The position numbers and the translations under genes are program-made. A DNA stretch of 64,000 nucleotides from Phorcus lineatus (taxonomy: Eukaryota > Mollusca > Gastropoda > Trochida > Trochidae). Location: the NCBI GenBank assembly GCA_921293015.1, contig OV121092.1:27637264-27701263 (forward strand). The letters are read 5' to 3'. Numbering within the stretch: position 1 is the stretch's first letter; every line of letters starts with the position of its first letter. Shown piece after piece: positions 3,241 through 48,670 of this stretch. The notes under the pieces are model-generated. The model did no database searches. It had not been told where the DNA came from and saw only the letters and a program-made list of their open reading frames with translations.

Positions 3241-6200
3241 AGAAACAGGTCAGTAAAGGAGCAATGTTAGAAATGTTAGAAATACCAAGACAATTCCGTA
3301 AATGAACCGTACTGATTGATCATGCACTTGCTCCTATACAGTGAGTTGTTGTGAGTTATCTCGACTCTAGTTTAGTTATCACAACCTTTGCACATAAATG
3401 ATATAATCTAGGTTACCTACCGTTGAGCAACTATTGTAACTCTACCTATCAGTTATTGGTACTCCTAAATCAAATGTACTGTATACAGGAATAAATATAT
3501 ATTCATTCATTCCAATATGTTATTGAGTGATGTCAATTTCAAATAATATTAGATTGATATTAATTTCATTTTAAAAACACGTTCTTCTCCAAATGGTATC
3601 ATCGACAATAATCATTTTAGGAATCATAGGTATCAGATATTTGATTTTTTTGGAGAACACGTAATTAACTTATGTTTTCTCTGTTTGATAAAAATGACGA
3701 TGAAATGATGGTATGTACTTATCTATGCTTGGACATTTCATTCCAAACAGATCTCTACTAGGCAGATCACGTTGTTATAAGTAGAATAGAGTGACATCCG
3801 GACAACGAAATTTTCTGACAAATTTCACCTGACAGAGAATTCATGGCGAATAATTGCTTCGGTCAAGGTCAGAAGCGTGCTTTTAAAACTTTCTCATACA
3901 GAATTGTTAACGAGTCAAATGCAAAACAAATCTGAGAAAGCAATAACAACCTCTGTTATTGTTTCACTCAGTAAATAAATGTATTTACAAAAAGTTCTAC
4001 GCAATACAGGTATTAACTGAAAATGAAGGCCATTTCATACATACATATACTGTATATAAGTATGTACACATATAATTAAGAGCTTAAATACAATAGTTGG
4101 GATATCTAATGGTTATAATGGATTTATAACAATTCTAAATCTAATTTGGGAATTTCGGAATTCACCGATAATTTCCAAATGAAATTTAAGAAGCCCTCTA
4201 TTAAGTAGACGTTAGTATTTTGCAAGCGTAGTCTGCGTTCGTATTAAACTCTTTAACATTTACAAAATTTTCGTCATTATTTTTGCATTCATGTTGTTAA
4301 TAAAGTTTAAAGTAAGCGTAGCTTGTACTTAAGAATGTGTCGTATGGTATACTCTCTGGTATATGGTCGTATGATATCGTTTATCTGGGTCTACTGGCTA
4401 AGGCCATATCATTGAATAATCTAGATAGATAAACGTAAAGTTTTGTGATTCGGGTTATTTGCGTTGAGCATATGCATACTTAGGATTATACTATATTTAT
4501 GTCGTTCCATATTTTGCACAATAAAAACATGTTTTGAGCAAATGGCCCTATGCAGTAATTTCGAGAACTATAATCGATAGGCGAAATGGATTGTTGTGCA
4601 TTACACAAGTGAACAGAACACTGCATAACCAGATTGAACAACCTCGGATCTTTCACAATAGCGAGTCAGAATCAAGTATTTTTGTACATATCAATGAAAT
4701 AACCACTGTGGTATATATAATTAAATTCCAACAAGTGATTCCTGTTTCAGTGCAAATTGGCATATAGCATTTTCAACATTTATTGCTATATTTCATTATT
4801 AAATGTGTGTAACATAGAATTGAGGTGAACATTTGCAAAAGGTGATGGGTACCGTTGTACAGTTAATCATCTAATCCCAATATTGTAACTTTTTAACATA
4901 ATCACTCATGTGAATACTTACAATTGTCCATGGTAGGTTTCGTTAATAACAAACTATTTTATACATAGCGACATTTTAACATACATAGTATGAAATTTGG
5001 ATTAAGACCTCCTCAGAGTCAATCATAATTGGACAGACTTTCCAGACTGTCAATATTAAACAGTTTTCAAGATTGTTTAAAAAAGGGAAGCTTGGCCCAA
5101 TTCAAACAAAATGTAGATGTAGGAAATATATCAACGTTGTAGATTCACATTGTCACATTTGAGCACCCATTCTTATATTATAATTTAAAGATGACTCTCA
5201 ACAAAAATGAAATCAATCATCTGACCCTACATGTTTTAGTTAAGGTTTCAATCCGCCTTAACATTGCATATACATATACAGTTGTGGCTTAAGATTTTCA
5301 TAATTTTTATCGCTTGGAGAGCGGTCCACAACGAAAATGTAGTCTCCATTTTAACTTAAGTCAAGGTTTAAGCTGACCCTTCTTCTCATCCGTTTAAACA
5401 ACCGTTAAAGAAGACATTTCAAATAACATTTTACCTCATTGATAAATACGTAAACCTGGCTATTTAACCTGCACAAGTTATACACACACAAATCTTACCA
5501 GGAAGTACAGTTTAAATTCTTTGATTAAACCTTAATTCTCACCCTTTCGACCCTTTAAAGAAACATTCTTCGAACCTTAAAAAATTGGTCAGACGTTTTA
5601 TCAAATATTAATTTTAAGTATTAAGTTAAAGCTTTATCTTCTTGCCAAAATCTCGACGTTGAAACAGCACTTTCTCTTAAATCTTTACAAACAAAAGGTG
5701 AAATAATTTTGTAGATTAATACAAAACCAAACCATTGACGTGCAGATAGACAGATAAGTATCGTCTTTAGCTGTGTTAGAATAGCAAATATCATCTCTAA
5801 AATGTTTGGCCTATAGTTTGATTGTGAAGCACCTAACGTCTCGCAAACTAAATGTATTAAATACATCCCTAATGTGGCTTGTATTACTCATGCCAGAAAA
5901 CCTAATGGAATTCACTGTTCCAGAGGACGTTATTCATTAATCTGGAGGACAATGCCACTTTGTGGTCTCTCAAATAGAAAAGCCTGTGAGCAATAAGAAA
6001 CATGATCCTAGTAGGCTGTGAAACTAATACCTAGTTATTGAGTTGATTGATATAATGTGAAATTTGATTTACTTAATTCACTTATGATATATCAAATATA
6101 GTATATGAAAAAGTAAATGGCTTTGAACAGTTTAAGGACTTTTTTTTAGTGACGTCACCCTAATCTTCTCTTCGGACGCCATGTATCTAAATTTTCCTCT

Positions 6201-12372: not shown

Positions 12373-14216
12373 AACTGAACGCCAAAAGAAATGTTACACC
12401 TCTTTGAATTTGAATATAATAAAAAGTTACGTGTTCAGAGGAATTTGCTTTGTTGTGTTGTAACACTCCATCAGTGTAGTGTTTTGTGCTAAAACAGCAG
12501 ACCTGTAACTTTAATGGTAAATAAGTTATCACCAGTTCTTCATGGGAGGGGTCAATTGTCCTATTTCCGATAATGCACAAAAACAACAAAATTATAGAAT
12601 ACATAATCATTAGTTTAATGACAAATTGTATGTGATCAGTATCTGGTATGTCCGCCATTGGCATTCAAACATGCCTGAACTCTTCGTCTCGCAGAAAACA
12701 CCAGTCGTCTGATTAAAGCAGGTGGTATCTGCCTCCATTCGGCCATCAATGCAGCAATAAGTTGTTGACGTGTGTGTGGTTGGTGTCGACGTTGACGGAT
12801 CCTTCGATCGATGTAATCCCAGAGGTGCTCGATGGGATTCATATCGTGCGATCTGGCAGGCCAAGGCAAAACGTGGACGTTGTTGACGTTGAGGTACTGT
12901 AACGTCACTCTGGCTACATGAGGACGAGCATTGTCCTGTATAAAAAGGGTGTTTGGATGGCGTTGTAAGAATGGGATGACCTCTGGCTGTAGGACCCTGT
13001 CAATGGACCTCTGCGCCGTCAGATTGCCGTCAATGGCAATGAGGTCGGTGGTTGCTTTGCCGCGTATCCCAACCCAGACCATGACGCTGCCTCAACCGAA
13101 AGGGATAACTTCCTGTACGCAGCAGCGTGCCTCCCTCTCACCCCGGCGACGGTAGACCCTCTTTCTCCCGTCTGCTACGTGCATCTGGAACCGACTTCCG
13201 TCGGAAAATAACACTCTCTGCCAGTTTTGGTTTTGCCAAGGTCGAACAATTCTGGCCCAAGCAACCCTCTTTTGCCGATGTCGGTGCGTCAACAGCATTG
13301 CTCGCATCGGCCGGTACGACCTCAGTTCATGTTGTTGGAGCCTTCTTCTCAGCGTCTGGGGACTGATTCGGTGTCCAACTGCAGTAGAAGCTGTCGTTGT
13401 GGCGGCTTGCAAGCGGTTCCTGAGATGCATTGAAGTAGGTACCGGTCTTCATTTGGGGTTGTCACTGGCGGGCTGCCGCTTCTAGCTCGGTCTCGAGTGG
13501 ATCCAGGTTGTTGTAGACGTCCACGCAGCCTAAGAATGCTCTAATCGCTCTTTCCCGCCCTTCAGTTGTTAATCTCGGCATTGTAATCGAATTATGATGT
13601 GAAACAATGAATACAGGGGCCTTTTATACCCGTGACCAACTGATTTCATGTGCATTTCATGCGTGGTAAAAATTATATGGCTACGTTTTGGTGACATGAT
13701 CCTTCTGATAAAAACCGAAATGTTTAATCAGTTCACTATTTAGAAAGATTTAGAAACAAATCTAGTCCGTAAACATGCGCCAAAGCTTCCTAAAACAATC
13801 GAATCACATTTTTAACAAAAACGTTTTCTTAGAATCTTATGGTTGTGTTTAGAATAGAAAAATAACAAATCTCAATATTTCGTCATTTTCAGACAAAAAA
13901 ACGAATAAATATTTCCCAAAACATAACTTATTTCCTTTTTTTAAATGTGCATTCGTTATCAGAGAAAACAAAGTCAGTTTGGTTAATTGTTACAATTTTC
14001 ACTTCAATTAGTGCATGAGCGGAAATAGGACAATTGACCCCACCCATGAATAACTTGCGATAACTTATTTACCATTAAAGTTACAGGTCTTCTATTTTAG
14101 CACAAAACGCTAAACTGATGGAGTGTTTCAACACAATAACGACAATTCCTCTGAACACGTCACTTTTTATGATATTCAAATTCAAAGAGGTGTAACATTT
14201 CTTTTGGCGTTCAGTT
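12373..14216 (-). mobile_element. Tc1-like DNA transposon with 206-bp inverted repeats
   Basis: The element spans about 1.84 kb. Its termini begin AACTGAACGCCAAAAGAAAT on the left (12373) and the reverse complement on the right (ending 14216). The inverted repeats run about 206 bp (12373-12578 and 14011-14216) with scattered substitutions. TA flanks the left end at 12371-12372, whereas the right flank reads CA, so the TA duplication has decayed. A broken transposase gene lies inside on the minus strand. Repeats this long are unusual beside the 19-bp repeats of the related element at 25 kb. Confidence 0.9.
12636..13581 (-). pseudogene. Tc1-like transposase, DD34E, inactivated
   Basis: This is a cut-and-paste transposase of the Tc1/mariner superfamily. 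From the start (MPRLTTEGRERAIRAF at 13581) the N-terminal helix-turn-helix region is largely lost. A frameshift then separates VTTPNEDR from MHLRNRL. The catalytic domain is otherwise readable: first Asp in LFSDGSRFQM, second Asp in IQDNARPHVAR, Glu in DMNPIEHLWD, with 34 residues between the last two (DD34E). A single in-frame TGA (13094-13092) interrupts the PFGGGSVMVW motif. The protein ends near 12636 with a Gly-Gly-His-Thr-Arg-Tyr tail. With the DNA-binding domain deleted, a frameshift and a stop, it cannot encode a full enzyme. Confidence 0.93.
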
Positions 14217-24996: not shown

Positions 24997-26499
24997 AACT
25001 AACGGGCAAAAGAAACGACACCATGCATAATTGTTTAATAAATGACTTAATGATGAATTATTTATTTAATTTCTGTTTTGAAAACAGATGAATAGTCTAT
25101 CAGACAACCAACATTTGAAGTGTTTGCGGTAAACGTGCAAAGTAAAGCCTCCAAAAGTGCAAGCATGAAATTGTCCTGAATTCGATCAGCAACTCAGAAT
25201 GGAAAAGTCACATCAACAAGTTTGTCAGTACATGTATCTTGTATGGCCGCCACGGGCCTCGATGTATGCCCGAACTCGACGTCGTGCTGAGAATATCAGA
25301 CGTGAGACGACACGGTCTGATATTCTCTGCCATTCCTCCCTAAGGGTTTGGGCAAGCTCTTAGCGATTTCATGGAACAACAGCTCTTGACCTGACTTGAC
25401 GCCCCAAATGGTCCCATTAGTGTTCGATAGGTGACAAGTCAAGTTATCTGGCAGGCCATGGCAACACGTTGATGTTGTTCCTCTGCAGAAAGTCTCGGAC
25501 ATTACGTGCAGTATTGGGACGTAAAGAGCGTTCTGTTGTTGTGTTGCTGCAGGAATGGTAGGAGAACTTGGCGTAGAATCTGATTGTGGTACCTCTCTGC
25601 GTTGAGATTCCCATCAACCACAACAGGATCAATCTTCCCTTTTCCGGAAATTCCGCCCCACACCATTACGCTGCCACCGCCAAAGGGTTCCACAGTCTCT
25701 ATACAGCAACGTCGCCAACGTTTACCACGTCGTCGATACACCCGTCCTCTACCATCGTTCGTGTACAATTGGAACCTGCTTTCATCCGAAAGGATTACCT
25801 TTCGCCAGTTCTTGGCCTTCCATTGCCGAACGTTACGTGCCCAAAGGAGACGTTAACGTTGATGTTGACGTGTCAGGTGCACGCCTCGGTTTGGTCTGTA
25901 GGCGCGGATACCATACTGTCTGAGACGTCACTGGCAACTGTTCTTCGACTGACAGCATCAAGCCCAATCGCCGTTGATTCCGTCACTGTCAGGAAACGGT
26001 TCCTCAGATGAAGAATTCTTAAATGGCGGTCCTCGTTGGCGGTTGTAATGCGGTGTCTTCCACTCCTCGGCAAGTCCACTGTCCTCCCCGTCTGCCTGTA
26101 GCGTCTTATCAGCCTGGTGATGGTAATACGGCTGCAGCCTTGGGTTGTAGCTACGTGTACGTTGCACCATCTGCACCAATCCGACGGCTTTCTCTCTTTC
26201 TTCTGGCGATAATTAATCTTCCCATGTTTCTTGGTGCAGTTGAAGTAGTGGTATGTCGTTGAGTGATCCGACACATCTTTTATATCCAAATAATGCACGT
26301 GCAACACGTTATTTTGATCAAACAAATTCAAGCTTTAATACAGTTTTACGGGAACGAATCGCCAAAACACAACAATTTTCGTGAATCATATGACTACTGA
26401 AATAAGAACATCATTTCCATGTCGAGTTTTTAATTTTCACCGCTTTCTTAACAAAATATTCAATCTTGCAATTTGGAATCTTTCTTTTGCCCGTTAGTT
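24997..26499 (-). mobile_element. Tc1-like DNA transposon, 1.5 kb, TA-flanked
   Basis: The ends are exact 19-bp inverted repeats (AACTAACGGGCAAAAGAAA at 24997-25015; complement at 26481-26499). Each is flanked by TA (24995-24996 and 26500-26501), the Tc1/mariner target duplication. The termini resemble those of element 1 (AACT, then AACG, then CAAAAGAAA), so the two belong to related families. A degraded transposase fills the interior on the minus strand. Confidence 0.95.
25225..26225 (-). pseudogene. Tc1-like transposase, several frameshifts
   Basis: Read on the minus strand, the helix-turn-helix part is visible (GCSRITITRLIRRYRQTGRT, then a Pro-Arg-Ser-Gly-Arg linker and NEDRHLRILHLRNRF). 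The catalytic domain follows with the first Asp in ILSDESRFQL and the VYRRRGKRWRRCC segment, then GGGSVMVWGGISGKGKIDP. The second catalytic Asp motif (usually QDNARPH) is deleted; only PNTARNVRDFLQRNN remains. Frame changes follow at WPAR and again near the C-terminus, which ends with Gly-Gly-His-Thr-Arg-Tyr at about 25228. A frameshift also lies near the N-terminal ERKPSDW. The gene is dead. Confidence 0.92.
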
Positions 26500-43696: not shown

Positions 43697-44233
43697 TCAG
43701 ACGACACTTGCTGTAGATATCATTTTAATGATGACTGGATGCGTCGCATTTCGACTTGATAACAAGTAATAATGTACAATAGATTGTTTTAACAGCCAGT
43801 TTTTTCTTTTCATCCACACTTTTACACTTTTATTTTCCTCCCTAATTGTGTCATTCTTCCATATTTCCGAAAGATTATCTTGGCAATTATCTGCTCCACT
43901 GTCACTACAGATTTCTGAAATCAGTTCTAACATGAACTCATCAATCTCGTTATATTTTTGAACACACTTAGCGTGTTCATTAAACAGATTTTCTATCTCT
44001 GTTACAACAAGATATGTTGAAAATTGTATCCTGTATTCCTCTGAGGCAAATCGATTCCCCTTTTCCAAAAATTTATTTGGTATATAAGGGATCGGCATGT
44101 CTATGAAGTCACTATATATTTCCGCAGTCCGTTTTGTTCGGACTGTCCGTTTTGTTCGGCTGTTAAAACAACCATCAACTACATCTTCCAATGTGCAGAA
44201 AAATGAAAAAAGATCTACAAATAAGGGAAACAA
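43697..44233 (-). CDS. Unknown ORF inside inverted-repeat element
   Basis: The minus-strand frame is 178 codons long; an ATG at 44098-44096 gives a likely product of about 133 residues. It is rich in Glu/Asn/Ile and looks genuinely coding: MPIPYIPNKFLEKGNRF, then STYLVVTEIENLFNEHAKCV, EFMLELISEICSDSGADNC and KVWMKRKNWLLKQS. The middle part is helix-prone and acidic and the end is basic. No transposase, reverse transcriptase or GIY-YIG motif was seen, so it is not an evident Penelope polymerase. It ends within the left arm, which encodes its last 25 or so residues. Confidence 0.45.
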   Translation of the reverse strand: MFPLFVDLFSFFCTLEDVVDGCFNSRTKRTVRTKRTAEIYSDFIDMPIPYIPNKFLEKGNRFASEEYRIQFSTYLVVTEIENLFNEHAKCVQKYNEIDEFMLELISEICSDSGADNCQDNLSEIWKNDTIREENKSVKVWMKRKNWLLKQSIVHYYLLSSRNATHPVIIKMISTASVV

Positions 44234-46760: not shown

Positions 46761-47754
46761 AATTCACGGCGAGGATGAATGGTAATTATTACTTATTACT
46801 GTACATTGAAGGTATTGTAAGGAATAGAACACTAATCAATATTATAATATTCATAACATTTCCAAAGATACAAATAGTTTTTCCCCACAAGAATGTGTCA
46901 TTTTCGAATATAAACTTCAGTTCGACAATTGAAAAGAAATGTATAACTGTGCCACAGAAAAGTATACTTTGAATTGACACTAAGAAAATAAAAAAAACAA
47001 TAGTATTCCTGATTGATTTGGAACATTTTAAAAAGTTTTCGAAATGACTTCTTTGTTCACGTAAGCTATGAAGATGATTTTATTAACATAGCTTTATTAA
47101 TAATCAACCAAATACTTCGCTCTACCAAACTTCCAAGACAAATTGTCTTTTTGTATAAAGAATCTTCATATTGAATAATTATCAATTCCGCAAATCGATG
47201 CCATTATCTTTGATAACACATTTCGTTAAACAATCATTACTTTGAACCAGTGATCTGAGGCCTTGGTTATCAAAAGTTCGCCAAAGGGATTTTTTGAAGA
47301 AGAGTTACAGTAAAGAATCTATAAAGAGTAAGTACATACTACAAAGATGAGGAGGACCGTGTCTCAATAGACAAAATGATCAATTACTTGTACTTCTATA
47401 AGTATTCAGATTTGTTTATTAGCCTTTCACTTTGGGCAATACATGGAGTCAATCTCTTTAATTACCTTTAACAAATTGCTTACCACAAATAATATCCACA
47501 GTTTGAAAAGGTCAAGCCTCTATATTATGCACTCATAAGAGCGAAGATGGAAAGTAAATTCAAGGGTCACAATATATTTTGATTTACACATTAGATATAT
47601 TATTTCTTTGTAAGTTATCAATTTATATACATTTTCTAATCATATGGAAATGTGTAAATACATTAATGCAGATGGGCGTGTAAACAGTTATGTAAAATTA
47701 CTGAAGGTGTGAACACATGTATATGGGCCCGATGGCCTTCATACTGAATAGAGA

Positions 47755-47755
<1 letters not shown>
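46760..47755. other. Non-coding, nothing identified
   Basis: The stretch is AT-rich; short frames at 46775-46980 have no recognised features. Confidence 0.4.

Positions 47756-47792
<37 letters not shown>
47756..47792. repeat. (TA)n microsatellite
   Basis: About 18 TA units lie directly left of the hammerhead element. A shorter (TA)n follows its right end at about 48037-48050. Confidence 0.95.
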
Positions 47793-47796
<4 letters not shown>

Positions 47797-48036
47797 AGTT
47801 GAATTGGTTCAAACGCAAGGTCACTTATAGATTAAATATAACATACTTCACATAGTCTTTTGCAGAATCATTTTAATCCGATACTAGTATTTCGTCAATA
47901 GTATTGACTCATCAGGGATGAAACGGTGATCGTTAACATCGCATTAGAAGCGTTTTTATAACTACATTGTACGTATATTTTACTAGTATCGGATTAAAAT
48001 GATTCTGCAAAATTCTATGTGAAGTATGTTATATTC
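47793..48036. mobile_element. Hairpin element carrying a hammerhead ribozyme
   Basis: Two 59-bp arms (47831-47889 and 47981-48039) are inverted copies sharing TTAAATATAACATACTTCAC, TTTTGCAGAATCATTTTAAT and CCGATACTAGTA, with very few mismatches. Both ends run into (TA)n. The loop-side sequence next to the left arm completes a hammerhead ribozyme on the minus strand; the right arm carries only the part from stem III outward. Penelope-like elements are known to carry such minimal hammerheads in terminal repeats that may be inverted. No protein is encoded, so this looks like a solo terminal-repeat pair or non-autonomous copy. Confidence 0.75.
47872..47924 (-). ncRNA. Hammerhead ribozyme, minimal type I
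   Basis: On the minus strand the conserved core is complete: CTGATGA (47915-47909), stem II GTCAAT-ACT-ATTGAC (47908-47894, 6 bp), GAAA (47893-47890), then stem III formed by A-TAC / GTA-T with a 2-nt loop. Cleavage would follow C at 47880 (site ATC). Stem I pairs ATCC just before CTGATGA with GGAT just after the cleavage site. A further TTT/AAA pairs beyond one mismatch. The very short stem III is typical of Penelope-associated hammerheads, which have been reported to work better as dimers. Sequence shows the fold; activity is inferred. Confidence 0.8.
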
Positions 48037-48050
48037 AATATATATATATA

Positions 48051-48670
48051 ATTGACAAAAAGTGAATAACATAACGTTTTAATCAGAACTTATTACCTCA
48101 CAGCTGGCATGTTTTTCAGATTCGCTTAACATTATCATCAAAAAGTGCTAACAGTATTCTGAAAGAGATAGGTAATTTAACATCAAATGAGAAACATTAG
48201 ACTCAGTCTTACTTCTTATACAAAAGGTGGAGCATTATTATTCTAGAAAGCTTCGAGCGAAGGTGTACAATCCTAGGGCAAGTTGCAACTACCCTTTGAT
48301 GTCACAGCGATCAGAGAGAGAGATGCCTCAAAACTATGTATTTGATGAAATAAATGTGCCGATAACATACATTTTGTGTAAATCAACGTCTTATAAGTGT
48401 AAGATATTAGATAAGGTTTATAACTACTTTGAATGAGTTAAAAATGTCTTTCTCGTTAGCCAAAGTAACGAATTCTAGTTAATAGCAGTTAGTAAACATT
48501 AAAAAAAACTAATGTTAGCAGAGTATTTGACATGCTTTGGAAGATCAACAGTACAACATTAAATGAATTAATGAGTTATGCCTCATGAAGAATATTTATT
48601 TGACCCGATTAATGTTAATGCAAAGATGGTTCATCTGCCCTTTTTTAGTTTTACTTAATACTGAGCATGT
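48051..48670. other. Non-coding, possible 5' part of Gypsy remnant
   Basis: A small open frame at 48227-48436 is unrecognised. It may belong to the degraded retroelement to the right but shows no diagnostic motif. Confidence 0.3.

Follow-up and report, generated by a model that had tools for sequence, protein, structure and literature searches.

What carried a hammerhead ribozyme into a hairpin in the genome of the gastropod Phorcus lineatus, and does that ribozyme cut RNA inside the cells of the animal? The question arises from a 64,000-nt stretch (contig OV121092.1 of assembly GCA_921293015.1, positions 27,637,264–27,701,263), here called the window, whose own positions are used below; the motif lies on its minus strand. 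A sequence-only reading of this stretch had described a near-perfect hammerhead within a coding-free hairpin element. Sequence comparison confirms that the motif is a minimal type I hammerhead, and we find that many copies of the Penelope-like element (PLE) to which we assign it stop exactly at the scissile position of the ribozyme. PLE hammerheads themselves are of a known kind; genomic copies that end at the cut are new here. These breakpoints make it quite probable that the hammerhead of this endonuclease-positive (EN(+)) PLE cuts in vivo, that its product is reverse-transcribed and that the cut is kept as a genomic breakpoint.

A hammerhead in a Penelope-like element

In minus-strand order, the motif consists of AUCC, CUGAUGA, GUCAAU.ACU.AUUGAC, GAAA, UACUAGUA, UC, the cut and GGAU (Table 1), with AUC as cleavage triplet, in agreement with the NUH rule. 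All boxes lie in the order and spacing, and at the positions, that had been claimed for them, and the argument that a full core with paired stems would hardly arise by chance holds up. The loose pattern CTGANGA..GAAA is not rare in the window (2 found against a mean of 4.59 expected), but the full descriptor, which requires four pairs in stem I, a stem II, GAAA, the pairs that close stem III, and UH, finds the motif, as a check proposed in the same reading, as the sole site in the window and nothing in 400 first-order Markov-simulated windows.

Exact matches to the 36-nt ribozyme core number 512 (242 + 270; reversed control, 0) in the 958 Mb assembly, the single genome searched. An element search, in which the best 40 of 1011 candidates were scored, led to 30 fetched loci (L001–L030) whose common features are the ribozyme, a 3′ end in two alternative forms running into (TA)n, and 5′ truncation of variable extent; in two of the 30 (L004 and L006) a core or product base is changed, as judged by eye. 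A reading frame with a GIY-YIG domain lies upstream of the ribozyme, and a genome search with this frame (258-aa query; best 147 of 2621 candidates scored) recovered open frames of up to 836 aa. In one locus, L062, two ribozymes enclose a 3,946-nt unit that contains two open reading frames (ORFs) and carries at each end a copy of a 350-bp direct repeat (pseudo-long terminal repeat, pLTR). ORF1 has its first ATG 117 nt downstream of the cleavage site; a Pfam search with ORF1 gave nothing at E ≤ 0.1. ORF2 (789 aa) matches the Pfam models GIY-YIG (E 4e-07, above the cut-off) and RVT_1 (E 1.3e-05; 25.5 bits, below the cut-off of 29.6). On these grounds the motif is assigned to an EN(+) Penelope-like retroelement with an ORF2 that combines reverse transcriptase (RT) and GIY-YIG domains, and with pLTRs that each carry a ribozyme. 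The stretch fetched as the 5′ region of another copy with an intact ORF (L147) held no element sequence.

The two alternative 3′ ends fall at positions 312 and 350 of the L062 unit, 38 nt apart and about 55 and 93 nt past the cut, and thereby provide the optional 30–40 bp 3′ tail of PLEs. Among 42 ends in L001–L030 (a few loci overlap and some copies are counted twice), 22 are long and 20 short or other, and in 40 the next sequence is (AT)5 or longer. Each of the two alternative ends is an AU repeat matching the (TA)n insertion target, within which a target site duplication is indistinguishable. Copies are often arranged head to head: L061 holds two ORF2 copies in this arrangement, and neighbours within 10 kb comprise 11 head-to-head, 5 direct and 1 tail-to-tail pairs in this family (family 1; first 100 listed of 742 sites). 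Two rearranged or adjoining sequences were seen besides. In L017 (positions 1–763) the RT is missing and a segment of ORF1 continues in frame straight into the GIY-YIG end of ORF2, and in L062 (positions 4354–4602) a near-perfect palindrome (88%) with below-threshold microRNA-like Rfam matches lies beside the PLE.

Two further families bear out the earlier lead to minimal Penelope-like hammerheads. Families 2 and 3 are PLEs 56–58% identical to family 1 over the 258-aa query, and their 3′ untranslated regions (3′UTRs) carry the motif as UUCC-CUGAAGA-stem II-GAAA-UAUGCAUA-UU, cut, GGAA (family 2) and AUAC-UUGAAAA-stem II-GAAA-UGAAUUCA-UC, cut, GUAU (family 3). In a comparison of these three sequences only, over 12 pairs that we named ourselves (C3–G8 among them), 35 of 36 cells are paired and 6 of the 12 pairs are changed on both sides; neither value is reached by any of 500 shuffles, and sliding the partners destroys the pairing. 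Family 3 neighbours within 10 kb comprise 16 head-to-head, 0 direct and 0 tail-to-tail pairs (all 60 sites).

Because stem III is an 8-nt perfect palindrome, with a different sequence in each of the three families, the active form of the hammerhead is probably a dimer. Unconstrained dimer folds, which are the evidence used here, give −31.0, −31.7 and −23.6 kcal/mol for the three predicted dimers against −19.4, −19.6 and −16.8 kcal/mol for two monomers; stem III is 10 to 12 bp long in these dimers. The title of a 2017 paper by Lunse, Weinberg and Breaker reportedly states that minimal PLE hammerheads cleave as dimers. In family 3 (L085 and L088) the core reads UUGAAAA, with U3/A8 in place of C3/G8 and the stems kept. 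This ribozyme may be weak or dead, because the hammerhead of an Anolis PLE stops cleaving when C3 or G8 alone is changed and recovers only partly when the two are exchanged together (PMC11167929).

Genomic breakpoints at the scissile position

Copies ending at the cut were sought in family 1 with the pattern of a cleavage-product start that lacks the preceding C17 (not C, then GGATTAAAATGATTCT). Product starts total 848, made up of 742 with the expected C, which were counted and not read singly, and 106 without it, for which the reversed control gave 1. One hundred of the 106 candidates were listed, and 48 were read in 40 fetched regions. Thirty-five regions (39 sites) followed the order of the list and covered C1–C5, apart from two C1 sites, as well as C9 up to a part of C13; five (9 sites) were hand-picked on C7, C16 and C17, four of them for closely spaced sites. 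A script sorted the 48 sites into 19 direct, 17 inverted, 5 other and 2 (TA)n junctions, 3 point changes and 2 chance matches. Inspection by eye moved L118 from chance to inverted (it has a small downstream duplication) and removed L069 (a 3-nt deletion) and both L078 sites (a GGATT duplication).

True breaks exactly at the cut site were found at 41 of the 48 sites (34 of the 39 taken in the order of the list and 7 of the 9 hand-picked). They join the cleavage-product start to another part of the element (16), an inverted copy (18), other DNA (5) or (TA)n (2); apart from the sites removed by eye, the non-breaks are L063, L110 and L126 (base change at C17) and L125 (chance). Extrapolation from the sites taken in the order of the list puts breaks at the cut at about 92 of the 848 counted family 1 ends, or 11%. 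At 12 of 16 inverted junctions the other arm, mostly unselected, also has its end no more than 5 nt from the cut; without L079 and L081, which had been picked because their sites were adjacent and which matched in both arms, the count is 10 of 14. In one locus (L082) two units, the first of 47 nt, follow each other directly and both start at the cut site, the arrangement expected if RT copied one short cleavage product after another.

Shifted patterns served as controls, with all candidates read. Placed 10 nt downstream of the cut, the pattern gave 14 candidates (2 true breaks, 2 small deletions and 10 base changes), and placed upstream, inside stem II, it gave 13 (4 true breaks, 1 doubtful (L155) and 8 base changes), corresponding to an excess of about 18- to 46-fold at the cleavage position.

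Family 2, with 247 sites that have the expected base, gave 19 candidates (reversed control, 3), all of which were read: 14 are true breaks at the cut site of that family, representing 7 distinct junctions, and the remainder are 2 with one extra G, 1 base change and 2 that are not the element. Several family 2 head-to-head pairs carry an identical chimeric junction in both arms, suggesting that the chimera predated formation of the pair. Family 3, with its altered core, has a single candidate against 60 sites with the expected base (1/61), and this candidate is an internal deletion ending at the site. The difference between families 1 and 3 (Fisher, p 0.015 on estimated breaks and 0.006 on raw counts) is suggestive and falls short of proof. 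A literature survey that included PMC12910113 besides the papers cited below, and did not extend to the primary 2014/2017 PLE-hammerhead papers and the 2017 Terminon paper, met descriptions of PLE hammerheads but none of genomic copies broken at the cut, so a prior report is possible.

Origin of the breakpoints

That the hammerhead quite probably cuts in vivo follows from the position of the breakpoints, their presence in two independent families and their weakness in the third. We propose that transcripts running through the pLTRs would pair by their palindromic stem III into a dimeric hammerhead and be cut in the cell. As the two 3′ ends suggest, RT would prime at AU-rich sites that match the (TA)n target and lie about 55 and 93 nt past the cut. 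On uncut RNA, presumably the majority, it would read on into the 3′UTR and ORFs; on cut RNA it would run off at the new 5′ end (GGAUU...), so that the cut site is kept as a breakpoint in an estimated tenth of family 1 ends. The run-off cDNA may then be joined to target DNA or to cDNA from the other nicked strand, the latter yielding head-to-head mini-elements; a template jump may instead link it to another PLE RNA. Head-to-head insertion would fit the behaviour of the Anolis PLE protein, which cuts and extends both strands and starts reverse transcription internally (PMC11167929). In a tandem transcript, a cut in the upstream pLTR would free a defined 5′ end before ORF1, and one in the downstream pLTR would shorten the cDNA and may thus also limit copying.

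Two rival explanations accept the breakpoints and dispense with cleavage. A pLTR promoter might begin the RNA at GGATT, with RT running off the primary transcript; such an RNA would leave an identical mark, and pLTR promoters have been discussed for PLEs (in the available part of PMC3846280), yet in two families of different sequence such a start would need to fall on the very base at which the hammerhead cuts, and the altered-core family 3 is nearly free of the mark. We regard a transcription start as unlikely. Alternatively, RT might stop strongly at the folded hammerhead on uncut RNA, the cDNA end then being joined elsewhere. The predicted stability of the dimer and the four to five true breaks at the control position inside stem II speak for such a stop, but it should occur at or before the 3′ strand of stem I, and not exactly after that strand has been copied, and family 3, with the same kind of stems and palindrome, has hardly any such ends; a structural stop is thus quite improbable.

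Three others concern the nature of the motif. Metazoan retrozymes, short tandem hammerhead units spreading as small circular RNA, likewise carry type I hammerheads (as far as PMC7229834 was available to us), and the two successive units of L082 recall them; the hammerheads of L062, however, are 3,946 nt apart with ORFs between, and copies in L001–L030 are dispersed or inverted. We rejected this very improbable reading, as ORF-less tandem units of about 170–400 nt were seen neither in the L062 unit nor in L001–L030. The inverted arms at the window locus (64 nt, 94% complementary) would suit a hairpin DNA transposon (miniature inverted-repeat transposable element) that carries a hammerhead by chance or for its own use. 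Against this stand the L001–L030 copies, which vary in 5′ truncation and inverted junctions, have one arm or none and end 3′ at (TA)n, and the relatives that extend upstream into RT/GIY-YIG ORFs; fixed terminal inverted repeats common to all copies are absent in L001–L030, and we rejected this explanation as having almost no chance of being right. It is scarcely conceivable that the motif is a chance match, for which the frequency of the loose core pattern and the lack of an Rfam hit in the window might be cited: the empty simulated windows, the 512 exact core copies and the covariation between families all oppose it, and conservation and covariation refute it.

Several observations weigh against in vivo cleavage as the source of the breakpoints, or against the hammerhead as such. 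In the Anolis PLE, mutating the hammerhead left in vitro insertion unchanged, and RNA-seq revealed no ends at the cut site (PMC11167929). Among the 106 family 1 candidates 58 are unread, breaks were classed partly by eye, the breakpoint data come from one genome only, and the contrast between families 2 and 3 is not significant (Fisher, p 0.32). Only 1 of 75 anchored copies in L001–L062 breaks at the cut; these loci were fetched through longer matches and not chosen by breakpoint, a sample biased against short copies that we set aside for the genome-wide patterns. At the window locus, the isolated monomer RNA is not predicted to fold as a hammerhead, and the predicted fold-back of the whole locus sequesters the stem III and cleavage strands in long arms. 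Finally, the Rfam covariance-model check, a hit to which the sequence-only reading had made decisive, failed: there is no hammerhead match in the whole window at the gathering threshold, and none at E ≤ 10 in positions 47400–48500 or in three PLE loci. We consider this result outweighed by the genomic evidence; minimal PLE hammerheads are described, in the available part of PMC6155905, as having no helix III.

On balance, we think it likely that molluscan PLEs preserve a fossil record of in vivo ribozyme activity, in which the template is cut in the cell and RT runs off at the 5′-OH end and jumps, leaving breakpoints on one phosphodiester bond where the core is intact and hardly any with U3–A8. 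If so, the ribozyme would shape insertions (mini head-to-head elements and chimeric 5′ ends) and may limit full-length copying. Breakpoints that record the cut to the base would turn any assembled genome with PLEs into an assay of in vivo ribozyme activity, with altered-core families as its natural mutants, and might explain many of the palindromic 'hairpin' repeats left by PLEs.

Related systems and the window locus

Minimal PLE hammerheads (Cervera and de la Pena 2014; Lunse, Weinberg and Breaker 2017; via PMC6155905 and PMC7761336), which we know from review descriptions, resemble the present ones in their type I form, very short stem III, pLTR location, tandem ribozymes and expected dimeric action; the features noted here are the perfect 8-nt palindrome that makes up stem III in all three families, the U3/A8 of one of them, and the breakpoints at the cut. 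The Poseidon PLE of Anolis carolinensis, PAc (PMC11167929), is alike in its RT/GIY-YIG ORF, in pLTRs with a hammerhead, in a 'tail' that results from two neighbouring internal start sites of RT and in the cleavage and extension of both target strands. The family 1 PLE differs from PAc in having two ORFs, in the cut 117 nt before the first ATG of ORF1, and in putative RT starts that are both AU repeats matching the (TA)n target. Penelope families of Adineta vaga, to the extent that PMC3846280 was available, share direct and inverted pLTRs with head-to-head the most frequent arrangement, an optional 31-bp tail, and palindromes at the 5′ end of some pLTRs, at which the authors proposed self-priming; the words 'hammerhead' and 'ribozyme' are absent from the main text of that paper. 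In the present families, the palindrome corresponds to stem III and many junctions coincide with the cut of the ribozyme. Metazoan non-LTR (long terminal repeat) retrozymes are similar, in the available part of PMC7229834, in having type I hammerheads and non-coding copies in invertebrates, whereas here no short tandem array was seen in L001–L030 and the 3,946-nt unit has its own RT. Hepatitis delta virus (HDV)-like ribozymes of R2 and other long interspersed nuclear elements are likewise thought to process the 5′ end of the reverse-transcribed RNA (available part of PMC7761336). Ribozyme and element are different here, and mostly short cDNAs would result because the cut lies only about 55–93 nt upstream of the putative RT starts.

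The hairpin of the window itself is, from comparison with these copies, a head-to-head insertion of two 5′-truncated PLE copies (A and B, Table 1) in a (TA)n microsatellite, an arrangement already described for animal PLEs (in the available part of PMC3846280). The inverted arms on which the idea of a coding-free hairpin element was based are thus real (64 nt, 94% complementary), but they do not define a separate type of element. Copy B has the cleavage-site half of the hammerhead and lacks CUGAUGA; its first 18 bp (47963–47980) are joined to TACTAGTATC through an internal deletion. As the junction between the copies lies beyond the cleavage site, the RNA copied there would have been uncut, and the locus would represent a head-to-head insertion from uncut RNA. 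Because of the inverted arms the whole locus is predicted to fold as a long hairpin (z −14.7), and this copy is probably not itself active as a ribozyme, its arms sequestering stem III and the product strand.

Table 1 Features of the hammerhead motif and the head-to-head insertion in the window
Feature	Positions	Strand	Basis
Stem I 5′ strand, AUCC	47916–47919	−	Read directly; partner 47876–47879; 2/4 pairs changed on both sides across three PLE families
Hammerhead core CUGAUGA (C3 to A9)	47909–47915	−	Sequence reading and descriptor search
Stem II, 6 bp with 3-nt loop, GUCAAU-ACU-AUUGAC	47894–47908	−	Sequence reading and descriptor search
Hammerhead core GAAA (G12 to A15.1)	47890–47893	−	Sequence reading
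Stem III, 8-nt perfect palindrome UACUAGUA; putative dimerisation helix	47882–47889	−	Palindrome here in all three PLE families, with another sequence in each; 10-bp stem III in the dimer fold
UC (U16.1 and C17); scissile bond 47880/47879	47880–47881	−	Reading and descriptor; other genomic copies break exactly here
Stem I 3′ strand, GGAU; 5′ end of 3′ cleavage product	47876–47879	−	Read directly
PLE copy A: 5′-truncated element 3′ end, whole hammerhead, long 3′ end ('tail' about 47793–47829)	47793–47962	−	Comparison by eye with L001–L030 and L062 unit
PLE copy B: inverted 5′-truncated 3′ end, short 3′ end	47963–48039	+	By eye
(TA)n flank of insertion	47756–47792		Repeat scan; 40/42 element 3′ ends in L001–L030 abut (AT)5 or longer
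(TA)n flank, other side	48038–48050		Sequence reading, arm comparison

Elsewhere in the window, a relic frame at 43700–44233, on the same strand as the hammerhead (minus), is 35% identical to ORF1 of the family 1 PLE over 130 alignment columns and represents a divergent PLE remnant. Two degraded transposase copies lie on the minus strand at 12613–13448 and 25299–26334, with DDE_3 matches in frame in each (E 9.4e-10 and 4.3e-04, the second below the cut-off), and a 34-bp tandem repeat occupies 1518–1834 (9.3 copies, 88% matches). Outside the window, 16 matches to haemocyanin functional units mark the host as a mollusc, and their organisation in units of eight suggests a gastropod; they form two clusters of eight (G000:C12:7646582-7661095 and 16557773-16572398), with such matches in 0 of 14 control genomes.
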